This document shows, piece by piece, positions 16,979-34,229 of a stretch of DNA of 64,000 bases. The position numbers were made by a program, and so were the translations under genes. The stretch comes from Macrocystis pyrifera (lineage: Eukaryota; Sar; Phaeophyceae; Laminariales; Laminariaceae), in NCBI GenBank assembly GCA_031763025.1, contig JASSKH010000025.1, forward strand, positions 930,001 through 994,000, given 5' to 3'. Positions within the stretch are counted from its first letter, which is position 1, and each line of letters starts with the position of its first letter. The notes under the pieces are model-generated. The model did no database searches and was not told the origin of the DNA. It worked only from the letters and a program-made list of their open reading frames with translations.

Positions 16979-17156
16979 GTGTCCGACGCATAACCATCGT
17001 CGGCACAAAGCCGGCACCCCGGTATTAGCCCGGCGACAGCGTGTGCGCTTTCCTCTTCCGACACCCCCCCAGCCCGGCGCATATGAGCGACGGTGCCCAG
17101 TGGGCATTACGATCATGGACTGCTGCAGCGTGTGCACCTTCAACCTCCGCACCTCG

Positions 17157-17480
17157 CCGTCGGCTCGATGTTGCAGCTCCTCTCCTTTCCTTAGTGCTGC
17201 CCTCAGACGGAGGTAGGAAGAGCGGCGGTCCTGACCTTCGTCCAGACGTTCTTTAGCACTCCTCTTCCATCCATCGCCGTCGGCCCGATGTTGCAGCGGC
17301 CTTCCATTCCGCGGTGTTGCCCTTGGTCGGTGGTAAGAAGAACGGCGGTCCTGACCTTAGTCCAGACGTTCTTCAGCTTTCCACCTCTGTCCGTCGCCGT
17401 CGACCCGATGTTGCAGCGCCTCTTGTTCCCGCGGTGCTGACCTTGCACGGTATTGAGAAGAGCGGCGGACCTGACCCTCG
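17157..17480 (+). repeat. Tandem array, ~120-bp unit, about 2.7 copies
   Basis: The unit begins GCCGTCGNCCCGATGTTGCAG and contains GGTAAGAAGAGCGGCGGTCC and TGACCTTCGTCCAGACGTTC. Units start near 17157, 17277 and 17397. An open minus-strand frame (17203-17514) mirrors the repeat with a repeated VWTKVRTA segment. Because 120 is a multiple of three this frame survives by chance, and I do not call it a gene. Confidence 0.75.
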
Positions 17481-18411
17481 TACATTCTTTGCCACTTGCA
17501 ACTGCCAGCGCCACAGCTGTCTAACACGCTCGGAGCATGTACTCATCTGCGAAACAATATGTTTTCTTCCTGTCTCACCTGCGTCTGAGGTGGGGGTTCC
17601 TCTCGAAGGCCTACGTCTGTACTTTGACAATAACCAACACGTTTCACCTTTCGGCTAGACATAGATTCTACTGAAAGGTACCATCGTCCTACCCCACCAC
17701 CTCACCTTTAACTGAGACTTCAGATGATTCTTACAGTGCTTCGTCGTATGACTAAACGTGCCCACACTACCTAGACACTGCGGTGACTGTCCACTTTGCC
17801 CCTCTCTATAAATTTGGGCGCTGACTGTCAAACCTGTTATAGCTGTTCACTGATGAGTATTCCAATATACTAACACACTTGACTGTGTCGATGTGGCATA
17901 ACGTCACGTACCTTTGCCACGATTCAACGTGCGCAGTGGACTATGTTGATGCTGCCACCATTCACTTACCTTCGCCCTACGTTTCTCACTGTGCCTTCCT
18001 TCAACAAACGTTTCTGCGAAAATTGGAATGCATGTGCCACATTGAAGTTTGTCCAGATGTCTCTAGTCGCTTGGTATGAATACCACGTTTAGATATACTG
18101 AGAAAATAAAAAGCAACAGCTGTGAGAGATCGAGGATTTCGTCGAAACTCGTCTTCGCCAACTTCCACGCTAGTCCTTTGCAAGCTGTGTGTGATTCTTC
18201 GGTCGCGCGTACTACCCGTTCTATATTATATAGGCCGTTCTGTTGGTGATGATGTCAAACTTTTCTGATTTGAGAGTAGATGTTCCTGGCGAATGTGGAG
18301 GTCGTTTTTTTGTATAGGTTCATCACGGGCTGTAGGAAGTTCATCATGAGTTATCTTTCTACTCCGGCCTCCTCCTATCGTCCAGAATTCTACTTCGTGT
18401 ACTTCGCGTGC
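17481..18411. other. No recognised feature
   Basis: Only short overlapping open frames occur here. I see no repeat match elsewhere in the window. Confidence 0.5.
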
Positions 18412-18840
18412 TTCGCACAAAGTTATTACCTGATCCGACTAGGTCATTGGAAGGTACTGATGTTAGCGTACTTCGCGTGCGTCGACTTACTAACACTAGC
18501 CGAAGGTTTTATCCGAGTGACTTAAGTCGTTTCAAGGTATTGACGTTTACGCCACATCGACTTACTGGCACTAGCCAAGGTAAATATTTAATTCCGAGTA
18601 AGTAAGTGTGCTTCGCACTAGGTTATTGCCTGATCCGAGTACGTCATTTGAAGATACTGACATTAACATACTTCGCTTGCTTCGACTCACTGGTACTAGC
18701 CAGAGATATTATTCGGTTTCGAGTGACATACGTCGTTTCAAGGTACTGACGTTTACGCCAATTCGACTTACCGGCACGAGCCAAGGTTAATATTTGATTC
18801 CGAGTAAGTAAGTCGTTAGAAGGTACTGTCGTTACGCCAC
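18412..18840 (+). repeat. Tandem array, ~97-bp subunits in ~198-bp pairs
   Basis: Two ~198-bp units (starting near 18412 and 18618) each hold two related subunits. Recurrent blocks are TTTCAAGGTACTGACGTTTA, CGACTTACTGGCACTAGCC and ATTCCGAGTAAGTAAGT. This is a higher-order tandem repeat without coding potential. Confidence 0.75.
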
Positions 18841-20809: not shown

Positions 20810-23800
20810 TTTGCTCCGGGTGGCGGTAGACAAGTGTTCGTGGCATGGTAGGCTCCTCAGTAACCACGTACAGCTTCACCCTGTAGCACCATCTACGGGA
20901 GCAGCTCATCCCGCAACGAGATTCAAAAGTGCTCCCTTCTTTTTCGATACCATCAGCGAGATATTCGTCAACAGCATCGCTCGCAAGGGTGGAATACCCC
21001 ATACGTTCAACGGCATCAGCAGCCGCAACGACTAAAGATGGATTGAATACATCCTAACACGCCAAGCACACCGACCTCGCGTGCATGATCTTAAGGTCCA
21101 CTCCATGCCTTCGCCCCCAGCTAAGGCGGATTCAGACCATAACATCGTATATGCGATGGTCCGCCTCAGCGGCCGTTTCGCACCCAACAGACACTTACGA
21201 ACAAATAACCAAATTCGGCCTTTCGACCGGCTGAAGTTTCGATTCGACGGAGATTGCAGGCAGCGAGTCGTCGCGCGGATCCTTTCAAAGCTTCCCTTCC
21301 TTCCCTCGCAACCGGACAGTATCTCTGAGATGGCTGAATCCTTTGCTGATGTTAGTCTTGATGCAGTAGCGAACGGAGTACCCCCCCCCCCACCACGGCA
21401 CCCTCACAAACCTCGGTGGTGCGAGACCGCGGAAACCTTGGCCGCCATACAATTACCTGGGATGCGAGGGAGGATGCCCGACGAGGCATGCGCACCAAGA
21501 AGGACAAAACCGCGTGGAAGACGCTGAGGACGGCGTGCGCGAATGTTCGAAGGGCAATCGATACAGCGTTGCACTACTTCGAAGAGCACCTTGCTGAAAC
21601 GCAGACACTGCTCGCCGATAACGATCAGCGGGGTATCTATAAACACTTGAAGAGCACGGTGGGGTTGGACGGTCGAAAGGTGAGAAGCGAGCATTTCATC
21701 CAGAACGAGGATGGTACGCTCCTAAGGGGCAAAGTGGGCATTCTTGAACGGCGGGCGAGGTTGTTCGGCATCCTCCTGACCATTAAATCGTTTAAGCTTG
21801 ACTCAACCATCAGCGCCCTAATTCCACAACGGCCGTTGGCACCTTCGCTTGGAGATGAACCGATCATGGGTGATAACGGCGGTAATTCGGGGTATACTAA
21901 ACTGGAAAGCGGTGGGACCAGGCTCCCTTCCGGCCGAGTTACTGAAAATCGACCACGCCGAATTCATCCAGTACTTTCACAACTTACTTGTCAACGTGTG
22001 GAGAACGGGTGAAGTCCCCCAGCAATGGAAAGATGCGACCATTAGGTAGGATGCTTCATAAAAAGAAGGATCGCTCTGATTGCAACAACTACCGGGGAAT
22101 TTCGCTTGTTGCCCCTTCAGGCAAGGTTTTGCTGAAGATGGTCGCGTCCCGCCTCAGTACTACGTGCAGGTCGAAAGGATACTCCCCGAGGAACAGTGCG
22201 CCTTCTGGCCAGCACGATGAACGGTCGACATGCTGCTCACCGTGCGCCGACTGCAAGAACTCGGACGAGCTACAAGAATCCCCCTGTACATGTGCTTCAT
22301 CGACCTGCAGAAAGCATATGACTCCGTCGACGTGAGCTGCTGTGGGTGTGCTCGCACGCTTCGGCGTAATAGAGAAGAAGCTAACCATTACCCGCCAGTT
22401 TCACGAAAGCATGCCAGCCCGCGTGCGTACGGATGACGGCGAGCACTCGGAATGGTTCGACGTCACTCAGGGGCGGCGGCAAGGATGTGTCTTGTCACCA
22501 CTTCTGTTCAATGTTTTCTTCGCTGTTGTGATACACGCCGTGCTGGTACGCTTATGTGATGACCCAGATATTTTAAGGGACTTGGTTCACCTCGAAGGGG
22601 ATCTCGGCGAGGACGGGGTGAAGGTTGACCCACTAACTTGCGTACATAGAAGTATGGGGTATGCTGTACGCGGACGATGCAGGCATTGTGTCTAAGTCGG
22701 CGGAAGGCCTTGCGAAGATGCTGACCGGCATTGCGACCGTTTTCGAAACAGCAGGCTTCACCGCGTCCGAAAAGAAAACGGAGACCATGCAGCTGCGGAC
22801 ACCGAATCAGGCACCCCATACCTCACCGCTCGCCATCGAAGCCGCGGGACAGAGATATAGACAGACGATGCAGTTTTTGTATCTGGGCAGTGTTGTCGTC
22901 GCAACCGCTGACATTATGCCAGAGATCAAACGACGGATCTGACTCGCATGGGCATGCTACAATCGGTTCAAACGGGAACTGTACGATAAGGAGGATGCCC
23001 CGTTCGTTCTACAAGTGCGCATGCTAAAGGCCGAGATGATGGAGACCCTGCTGTAGGGTGCGTGACGTGGGCTCTTGGTCAGGAGCACTTCGCAGAGCTC
23101 CGAAGGGCACACCAAAAACTCCTCCTACGGATCATTGGCTTCCAGCGCCGGCAACGCACTGACCACCTCATGTCGTACGCCAAGTCCTCAAAAAGGCACA
23201 ATGCGAGAGCGTTGAGACGACCACCTGCAAATGTCGCCTCCTCTTTGCGGGGGCCGTACAGCGGACGACCAATGAGCGGCTGACCCGCAGTTGATGTTTG
23301 GGACGATGGCTGGTGGGGAGAACCCAGGACCAGGTCGACCGGAAATGAACTGGGCCCAATGTCTAGCAGACGACCTCAGGGTTTTCCAAGCCACCGAGGG
23401 GTCCACGGAAAGCTCCCCTCTGCTATTCGGAGTAGAAACGGGATTAAGGTCGAGGGCGGCTAAGAAGAGCAGGAAGTGGTACCGGGGGGTCGTCGATGCG
23501 GCGGACTGTTTCATGGAAAGGAGGCACAGGGACGGGGCTTAGAAGAGCCGGGAGCGCCACGCAGCTGAAGACACCAAGCACAGCGACAACGGGATGGAGG
23601 TAGAGGGGAAGGGCAGCCCTACTGATACAGCTGTCGACGAATGAATGCAGAAACGAGGTCATAGATCGGGTCGGCTCTCTATCGCTTCGACTATTCATAG
23701 CTCGTTTTAGCCTGTAGCTCCCTCTCTTTCGCGTCGCTTCGTCCACGCAGCAGATATCTGTCCTTCCTGAGTACGTATGCTGTCCGTCTGGCAGCCTTTC

Positions 23801-30984: not shown

Positions 30985-31665
30985 TTCTTCGAGGAACGTG
31001 CAGTGGTTGGACAAGCGAGGCCATTGGCACAGTCGTGTGGACATGGTGCATGCCGATGGCGCAGCAGTTGTCTCGACGTCGGTAAAGTGACTATTAATAG
31101 CAAAACAGAATACAGCTCTCGTGACTGCGTTCGAAGCAGTGGGCCTCGCGGTTTCAGAGAAGAAGACGGAGACGATGCTCCTGTGAACGCAGAACCAGGC
31201 CTTCCCTGCTCCCCTGTACGTGATCGAAGCTGCTGGCTGGAGGTACGGACATACGACCCAGCTCTCACACCTATAAATTAATTTGCAACAAAGACCTTCA
31301 CCTCTCGCTTAAACTCGAACGACTGATGCGTCGCGGGTGTGCCTCAAACCATTTGACACGGAGCTGTAATGTATTAACACGCCCCCGGAACACCGAGGTG
31401 GTTGATACCCTCCTGCAACGGGTGTGTGACGTGGGCTCTCAATGCGGAACACGAGGCTCTGATCAGTGTACCAAGTCCTCCTGTGGGTCATTGGCTTCCA
31501 GCGCCGACAAGGTGCCGACTATACGACGTTATCATATGCAAAGGCCCTCAAAACGATTCAACGCGAGAGAATCCAAACGAGCATTCGGAAACGCAGGCTC
31601 GTCTTGGCAGCAACCGCGGTGCGGCTTCAAAACAGGCGGTTATCAATAGACTATTGCCCCTACAA
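30985..31665 (+). mobile_element. LINE fragment, degraded reverse transcriptase C-terminus
   Basis: It matches the LINE family from just before the YADD box (here decayed to HADGAA, near 31050-31065) through the segment after it (GTGACTGCGTTCGAAGCAGT, AGAAGAAGACGGAGACGATG). It continues to the thumb region (GTGTGTGACGTGGGCTCTCA, TCATTGGCTTCCAGCGCCGA) and the IRKRRLV-like segment. Frames change repeatedly. It stops where the foldback array begins. Confidence 0.8.
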
Positions 31666-31669
31666 CAGA

Positions 31670-32985
31670 GTCACGAAGTTGTCCATTAATGGGAATCGTC
31701 CGGGCAAGTGATGCCATAGCCTGTCTACCAGTTGAAAGAGTTTAGACAGTTGAGCTTGGATACTGTCTATTAATTGGATTTATTCGGACAATTGATATCG
31801 AGTACTGTCTAACAATTGGAATTGTCCGGACAAATAACTTTGGAGGCTCTCTATCAATTGAAGTTATGCTGACAACAGATTTCAGAGACTGTTCATCAAT
31901 TGGAATTGTCTGAACAATTGATGCTTGGTGCTTTTCAATGATTGGAATTGTCCAGACAAATGAGCTCGGAGACTGCCAATCGATTGAAATGTGCTGGCAA
32001 ATGATTTCACAGCCTGTCAATTAATTGGAATTGCTTGAACAAATTATTTCGGGAGATTTACACGAATTAAACTTGTCGGGGCAACTGCTTTGAGAGACTG
32101 TCCATTAACTGGAATTGTCCGCATAAAGGGTTTCGGAAGCAATCTACTTATTTGAATTGTCATGACTATCGAGTTTAAGAGGGCTCTGTTATTTGAAAGC
32201 TGGCAACTACTTGTAGTGTTACGTTTAATTTGGTCAGTACACAACAGTACACCATGCTAGTATTGCCTCTACAACAGGATCGGGAACTTTCCTCTATACG
32301 CAATCATTTGCAAGGTCCTATATTGTGCCATATTATGAGTAGTATCAATTCAATACCTGCTGTAGGTACACGGCAATGGCATTTATCGAACAATTGCTTT
32401 CTTGCGCGACATCTGAAATTAATCGTGCGGACAGTTCCAACTACTTTCCAATCGCCGAAGTCCTTTTTGACAATTCCGTATATTTGACAGCGACCGAACT
32501 CAATTGTGCGGAAAATTTCAGTTAATAAGCAGCAGCCGAAATCAAATGTTCAGACAGATCCGGTTCATCGACAACTCCCGAAACCAATTGTCTGCACAAT
32601 TTCAGTTGGTGGACCAAACCCGACATCAATTGTCTGGACAAATCCAAGTATTGGATCAGCACCCAAAATCAATTTGTTGAATAATTTCAATTAGTCAGCA
32701 GTTTCTGCGACCAACTGCTTGGGCAATTCCAAGACAACACTCGAAACCTATTGCTCACACAATTCGAACTTGTAGATGGTGTTCGAAATCAATTACCTGG
32801 ACAATTCCAAATCATAGACAAATGGCGAAACAATTGTCTGGTCAATTTCAGTAAATGGGGAATCACCGAAACCAATTGTATAGACAATTTCAATTGATAG
32901 ACAGTCGCTATAAACAATTTTCCAGGACAAATCCAATTAACACACATCCTCCTGAACCAATTATAGACACAATATACTATTGAGG
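31670..32985. mobile_element. Foldback-type element built of 42-bp units in inverted arms
   Basis: The left arm (31670-32210) holds about 13 tandem units of ~42 bp with the approximate consensus GTCNATNAATTGGAATTGTC, then a GGACAA block and TTTCGGAGACT. The right arm (about 32370-32985) holds about 14 units of the reverse complement (CCGAAATCAATTGTCTGGAC followed by AATTTCAATT). The centre (32210-32370) is unique, apart from ATTGCCTCTACAACAG, which also occurs just outside the left arm at 31652-31667. Large inverted arms made of tandem repeats define foldback-like elements. No coding region is visible. Confidence 0.8.
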
Positions 32986-34229
32986 TAGTAACTGTCCAGG
33001 GTGTGGTGCTCACTGATGCTTGCCTCTTACTGCTTCTACAGCTTGCTGTTGCATGCAGCTGCTGATGCTACTGCTGTTGCGGCTGGAGGTAAGTTCTGCT
33101 ACTCGCACGACTTCTGCTCGTACTACAAGTTTTGCCGATGGTAAAAGTATTTTTTTCTGACAGTAACCAATAATCCAGTATTGTGCGTTTTTTTGTTTCT
33201 GATTATGCCGATCCCGGAATCTTTTCAATTTAGAATATCGTTGCGACGGAAATCCTTCATAAATCAAAATGCCTGGAAATATGAAAAAAAACTAATCGTA
33301 GAGTGTCTGGGCAAGTAATTTAGTTGTTCAAGCATGAGTTGTCCTGCTCCAAGTCCTGCAGTGCAAAGTGGTTCGTATGGTGTTTGCGAATAATGTTTTT
33401 CTTCATCAGGGGTTGCCGTTGGAGATATTATCAGAATTGAAAGTCTTCCGGGATGCGCATAATCGGAGACGAAAAAGCCCAAACATTTAGATCGTTGTGT
33501 GGGGAAAACAAACGTGCAACAACGGCAGTAGCAGTGGCAGTAGCAGCGGCAGCAGCGGAAGAAACAGTGAGCAGCTGCAAGCCATAGCGAGCAGAAAAGT
33601 GTGGTCTATACTTCGCTCCTCGACACTCGCTGTGTAAGCAACGCTGCCACAGGAGAAAATCGTTCACGTTCGTCTTAATTGTCCTCTCTATCCGAGAAGG
33701 GGTCATAGGGTTGACGATCAGGATCGTGGCGGCAAGGGTGTGCTCCATCGCAGCAAAAGCAGCAGCCGCGCTTGCAACAGCGCTTGCAACAGCGCTTGCA
33801 AAAGCGCTTTCGCTTGAAGCGTCTCCCTTCATTGCAGCAGAGCCTGCTTGCAGCAGCGCAAACAAACGAAAGCAATGACAAGTACATACAACACGCCGCG
33901 CCTAAGAGAAGGTGGGAAACACACACGCCGCGATTTAGTATGCAAACAAACGGAGGGGGGGAAGGGAATGCCGCTCGGCCGCTCTTTGGTGCTCATCGGG
34001 AAGAAGCGACGGAAAATCGCACCAATAGAGCAGTAAAAACAAGCAAAAAACTGGAAGAAGCCCACAGGCTCGCCACCCATCGGGCCCAACAAGACTCACC
34101 ATCATACCAGTATGAATAAGCACGAAGCACGAAGTGCCAACACTAAAAAACAAATTAAAATAAAGCAGATTCAAGCAACCGCAGACTTTTGTGCTTCAAC
34201 TGCGTTCCCGAGACTGACTCTTACTACTA
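32986..34229. other. No firm gene; GCTTGCAACAGC minisatellite
   Basis: A 12-bp repeat GCTTGCAACAGC occurs 3-4 times at 33765-33812, next to CAG-rich stretches at 33510-33570. A 144-codon minus frame (33431-33865) is Ala-rich because it runs through these repeats. I recognise nothing in it. Confidence 0.45.

Follow-up and report, generated by a model that had tools for sequence, protein, structure and literature searches.

Tandem repeats in the ends of foldback-like transposons have been described before, and three such elements bear on the present case. Galileo of Drosophila, a member of the P superfamily, carries transposase (THAP) binding sites within its tandem repeats (PMC3688188), and it generates 7-bp duplications (PMC3688188, PMC3573991). 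Tetris of Drosophila virilis makes 8-10-bp duplications, and its autonomous partner was not found (PMC4079207). The third, Tm1, is a Mutator/Foldback element of root-knot nematodes (PMC3169594). For brown algae, a paper on Ectocarpus transposons, as far as the excerpt goes, calls transposon biology underexplored, and the excerpt of the giant kelp genome paper reports a RepeatModeler library (PMC10498591), which may hold the element discussed here unlabelled. Among the titles and abstract openings listed in our literature searches, none describes the kelp element.

We analysed a stretch of 64,000 nucleotides (the window) from the giant kelp Macrocystis pyrifera (contig JASSKH010000025.1, positions 930,001 to 994,000). 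Very probably, it holds an old copy, truncated on the left, from a family of non-autonomous DNA transposons of class II (terminal-inverted-repeat type). The span homologous to other family copies in the same genome is 31641-33005, slightly wider than the 31670-32985 of the preliminary description, and its alignment of 1399 columns with L009, a full copy, shows 85.9% identity to positions 799-2195. Judged by this alignment, the window copy is the right 1.36 kb of a dispersed family of about 2.2 kb, and its parts are as follows.

31641..33005, + strand: window copy of the element; the left ~800 bp are missing, according to the L009 alignment
31641..31687, + strand: remnant of an internal terminal inverted repeat (TIR) and end of spacer 1; the alignments with L009, L012 and L016 begin here, give or take one base
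31688..32190, + strand: block B, 12 head-to-tail 42-bp units, from position-matrix matches and a direct scan
32191..32400, no strand: spacer 2, the centre of the preliminary description; zero unit matches, aligned in full copies
32401..32940, - strand: block C, 10 recognised reversed units, degenerate rightward; the right bound is approximate
32991..33005, + strand: right TIR, ACTGTCCAGGGTGTG, with one change relative to ATTGTCCAGGGTGTG

Units were searched for with a 42-bp position matrix built from seven copies other than the window copy. The accepted units of the window copy score 14 to 48, far above the best score of -0.75 in 80 shuffled sequences, and the autocorrelation of the array has its maxima at 42 and 84; Tandem Repeats Finder reported nothing at 31670-32985. 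The inverted arrays of 42-bp units are thus real, as had been proposed, with 12 units on the plus strand facing 10 recognised units on the minus strand; the earlier counts were about 13 and 14, and the centre, put at about 160 bp, measures about 210 bp by the matrix. In block C the matrix matches stop at 32895, and alignment to block C of full copies extends degenerate unit sequence to about 32940. The core of the consensus unit, AATTGTCCGGACAATT, is a perfect palindrome made of AATTGTCC GGACAATT, that is, of the word GGACAATT back to back with itself. The window copy has no exact core, 7 cores with up to two mismatches and 15 with up to four; elsewhere in the window the corresponding counts are 0, 0 and 3. 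The short word reported both outside the left arm and in the centre is indeed there (ATTGCCNCTACAACAG, at 31653 and 32262), and in the full element these two places are the end of spacer 1 and spacer 2. Because the arms are inverted, a stable single-strand fold is expected, and the window copy would fold at -427 kcal/mol, more stably than 12 shuffles (mean -334 kcal/mol).

When 31600-33050 was searched against the genome, there were 686 candidates; scores were computed for 40 of these, the window itself included. Thirty-five of the 40 places align over nearly the whole 1.36 kb and five in part; leaving out the window, this amounts to 39 loci on many contigs, 34 of them near full length. The left-end pattern, with up to two mismatches, occurs 310 times genome-wide (143 forward and 167 reverse; reversed control 0), and an exact 16-base core is found at 215 places (control 0). 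Other copies reach about 800 bp further left than the window copy, with a length of 2145-2236 bp in 13 measured copies. Full copies have the order TIR, block A (-), spacer 1, block B (+), spacer 2, block C (-), TIR, and spacer 1 ends in a second, internal copy of the left TIR. In L009, this internal copy aligns to the left TIR with a score of 35, whereas 1000 shuffles reach 24 at most. The first base of the window copy lies about 17 bases into the internal TIR copy.

The block order -,+,- is found in all 29 fetched copies L006-L034, and 25 of the 29 have 10-13 units in every block; the exceptions concern block A, with 16 units in L014, 15 in L032, 6 in L028 (cut) and a split of 8+2 in L031. 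Some of these copies, for example L030, have no recognisable end. Blocks A and C, the outer ones, share one orientation, and B and C are mutually inverted. Because the two outermost arrays point the same way, the earlier picture of a foldback with inverted arms fits the right part only: the data support a mobile element whose inverted arms consist of 42-bp units, but the window has just a part of it, the family being 2.2 kb long with three arrays. Since, in addition, the unit number is nearly fixed, we read the family as foldback-like, yet as no canonical Foldback element.

Eight copies have deviating interior sequence (L041, L044, L048, L054, L056, L057, L058 and L064), and an 881-bp stretch is 99% identical between L064 and L028. 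Right of the element, the window sequence at about 33380-33800 shares 75-80% with an insert that interrupts L048 and therefore belongs to another repeat family. At G000:C208:4630646-4630678, two element ends stand back to back with 13 bp between them. Copy pairs with very similar flanks lie on one contig about 275 kb (L042/L043), 37 kb (L101/L103) and 25 kb (L062/L063) apart, which suggests duplication of larger segments after insertion.

The preliminary description saw no encoded protein, and the longest stop-free stretch of the window copy is 96 aa. In 13 full copies the maxima range from 112 to 221 aa, and six of them exceed the maximum of 159 aa reached in 100 shuffles of L009 (mean 93 aa); open frames of up to 221 aa are in keeping with a 42-bp period. 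An encoded repeat protein was considered and rejected, as block B changes least at what would be the wobble phase, worked out by hand, and block C has no phase effect. No transposase was seen by eye in the open frames of the eight deviating copies. Judged by the lengths of stop-free stretches and the phase of change, there is no credible gene in the copies examined, and movement would therefore be in trans.

Corresponding units are 93.4% identical between five copies (340 comparisons), whereas the units within one copy are 64.4% identical (2979 comparisons, five copies). The divergence within the arrays is thus old, and by now they are copied in one piece. On these sequence comparisons, the family is the spread of a fixed master, and reflects neither satellite turnover nor an assembly fold-back; one or few master copies with about 12+12+12 units would have given rise to the present set. 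In an alignment of the right 1.4 kb of 30 copies, 29 differ by 1.9-5.8% from the column majority and the window copy by 9.8%, and the tree of these copies is star-like. Older copies, 77-86% like L009, also occur (L001, L002 and one beside L062). The window copy is, with high probability, the product of an earlier round than the present set, with its left third gone.

To the left, a translation of about 31120-31640, read by eye, gives a LINE-like frame that continues up to the element start. A broken LINE had been described against the array: such a frame does abut the left edge, and its label is a by-eye one, based on motifs, because a 51-residue fragment of the frame has no Pfam match. By eye, there is neither LINE sequence after 33005 nor a duplication around the window copy, so that a clean insertion is less likely than a deletion by which LINE and element were brought together. 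The left third was probably lost in such a deletion, which would also have fused the element to the broken LINE; the LINE looks like a neighbour at the truncation junction and not like a part of the element. Elsewhere in the window, an open stretch at 21946-22335 (+) shows the beginning of a motif like that of reverse transcriptases (RVT_1 at E 0.064, which misses the cut-off) and is perhaps a second LINE remnant, and the regions 17154-17476 and 18408-18813 hold tandem repeats, whose periods are 120 and 206 bp.

The TIRs of L009 align over 35-38 bp, both starting with CACACCCTGGACAAT. Many copies have 15-bp inverted ends, and the element ends are CA..TG. In the search for an autonomous partner, an end pattern with C or G after CACACCCTGGACAAT was found at 14 places, four of which are ends of known copies. 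Flanks were compared in 51 copies. From L006-L034, eight without both ends recognised (some with degraded ends only) and L031, whose left flank is too short, were dropped; two extra batches lost 3 of 17 and 10 of 30 copies for which the fetched stretch held no right end, the second batch having been chosen for an exact left end. L043, L063 and L159 were dropped because they have the same flanks as L042, L062 and L060, and L032 was kept despite a doubtful left end.

An exact 8-bp direct repeat abuts both ends in three of the 51 copies (L040, L145 and L149) and is absent from the other 48. Among 2550 mispaired flanks there is no exact abutting repeat of 8 bp, one of 7 bp and two of 10 bp. No copy of the 51 has an exact abutting 9-bp duplication, and those longer than 6 bp are all 8 bp. 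Direct repeats of at least 6 bp that hold a G or C and lie within 7 bp of the ends occur in 9 of 51 copies, against 0.96 expected. In the first 34 copies, direct repeats close to the ends were over-represented, with z as high as 6, and had no fixed offsets; a duplication of TA, of AT or of zero length, considered for those copies, was replaced once further copies showed exact 8-bp repeats. The genome search did yield dispersed copies, but exact target duplications are seen in few of them, while by our estimate from divergence about half of the copies should still keep the 8-bp duplication.

The targets are A/T-rich, and many copies have the flank make-up aaaT|element|Atttt; left flanks end in AAT in 19 and in GAC in 4 of the 51 copies, and right flanks start with ATT in 17 and with GTC in 6. 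The two flanks of five filled sites (L042, L010, L047, L029 and L006) are collinear with copies of the same host repeat that lack the element, so that recombination between copies does not explain the missing duplication at those five. The left flank of L010 keeps an intact AAATTT. The host repeat that holds the L042 insertion, as seen at L082 and L083 (right flank), contains ACACGCCCTGACAATTC, which resembles the element's own TIR.

Which kind of transposase could have moved the family? hAT and P elements make duplications in the range of 7-8 bp, and an 8-bp duplication fits KDZ, hAT and P, with Mutator also compatible. We give roughly an even chance to the element being a non-autonomous relative of KDZ, hAT or P, the superfamilies with 7-8-bp duplications, in agreement with the exact 8-bp duplications in three of 51 copies and the CA..TG ends. 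According to excerpts of the respective papers, no other named DNA superfamily occupies as much of the Ectocarpus genome as KDZ does (PMC12477816), and Zisupton produces 8-bp duplications (PMC12730594). The KDZ and P models had no matches in the kelp genome, but this says little because the control genomes were silent too. hAT domains have at least 150 matches (150 of 317 candidates scored); on the other hand, by eye a single one, at C189:7319855, is no more than 6 kb away from a listed end, which is about chance by a rough hand estimate. Domain coordinates were compared by eye with about 100 of the 310 listed ends and with the 40 scored places, two overlapping sets, and on this basis the KDZ, P, hAT and MULE domain searches yielded no transposase linked to the element ends. 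A scan of IMG/VR for the left end gave 0 matches.

A Foldback of the Mutator type, with long inverted repeats, a variable unit number and duplications of about 9 bp, appears unlikely to us. Blocks B and C do form inverted arms of tandem units, the targets are A/T-rich, the genome has 94 matches to MULE domains, and Tetris, with its 8-10-bp duplications, is assigned to Mutator by its authors in the excerpt available (PMC4079207). However, outer blocks of the same orientation, a nearly constant unit number and exact duplications of 8 but never 9 bp are at odds with this reading, and by eye there is no MULE domain within 40 kb of the listed ends or scored places. Still less probable is a Spy-like enzyme: Spy inserts between AAA and TTT without a duplication, as the flank make-up would allow, but the exact 8-bp duplications, the excess of near duplications and the AAATTT left intact beside L010 argue against it. 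A plain satellite inverted once locally, or a fold-back introduced here by the assembly, would produce head-to-tail units and inverted arms, but its probability is negligible and it was rejected in view of dispersed, end-defined copies, empty sites and orthologous units far more alike than neighbouring ones, the opposite of homogenisation. Run genome-wide, the two refutations envisaged by the preliminary description both fail, since many loci share the structure and the inverted ends, and of the 39 other scored loci that match the window copy, 34 do so almost from end to end.

For a non-autonomous DNA transposon family, we propose that a transposase encoded elsewhere binds the ends together with the repeated palindromic GGACAATT words, and that the element would be cut out and pasted mainly into A/T-rich sites with an 8-bp stagger. 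The arrays of GGACAATT words may act as clustered secondary binding sites for this enzyme. That the units are such sites is suggested by the short shared word and by analogy with Galileo. In its two orientations, the right TIR aligns with the unit at scores of 26 and 23, which 0 and 8 of 1000 shuffles equal, and the printed alignment passes through GGACAATT; for the left TIR, whose likeness to the unit barely exceeds that of shuffles, the counts are 19 and 82 of 1000. It is possible, though we are doubtful, that the cuts of the transposase often fall several bases beyond the inverted repeats, and that synapsis depends on three fixed arrays of palindromic sites and not on precise termini. If so, copies would carry short pieces of the donor flank (AAAAT/ATTTT, GAC/GTC) to each new site, and each unit would resemble two element ends fused head to head. 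As a populous brown-algal family, the element makes the role of repeated subterminal arrays for a transposon testable, and it is well suited to this with near-fixed unit number and order, hundreds of copies, and directly readable end variation and empty sites.

The comparison with known systems, based on the parts of the reports available, starts with Galileo, which like the kelp element has foldback-like, long, internally repetitive ends and some copies with non-matching flanks (PMC3688188, PMC3573991). In Galileo, copies whose flanks do not match are chimeras between two groups of TIRs (PMC3573991), whereas five kelp sites are collinear with empty ones. The kelp element differs further in its 42-bp unit and three arrays, the outer ones in the same direction; a P-type transposase has no match in kelp, with control genomes silent as well. 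Tetris resembles the kelp element as a non-autonomous, foldback-like transposon with tandem repeats in its ends, but its units of about 220 bp vary in number and also form satellite arrays (PMC4079207), while most kelp copies have about 12 units per block and no large satellite was seen among the fetched loci. Tm1 shares composite, Foldback-similar TIRs and departs from the kelp element in its 9-bp duplications, its variable TIR length and the transposase encoded by some copies (PMC3169594). What is new in the kelp family is its host group, a layout of three blocks whose outer arrays point the same way, the internal TIR and the near-constant unit number.
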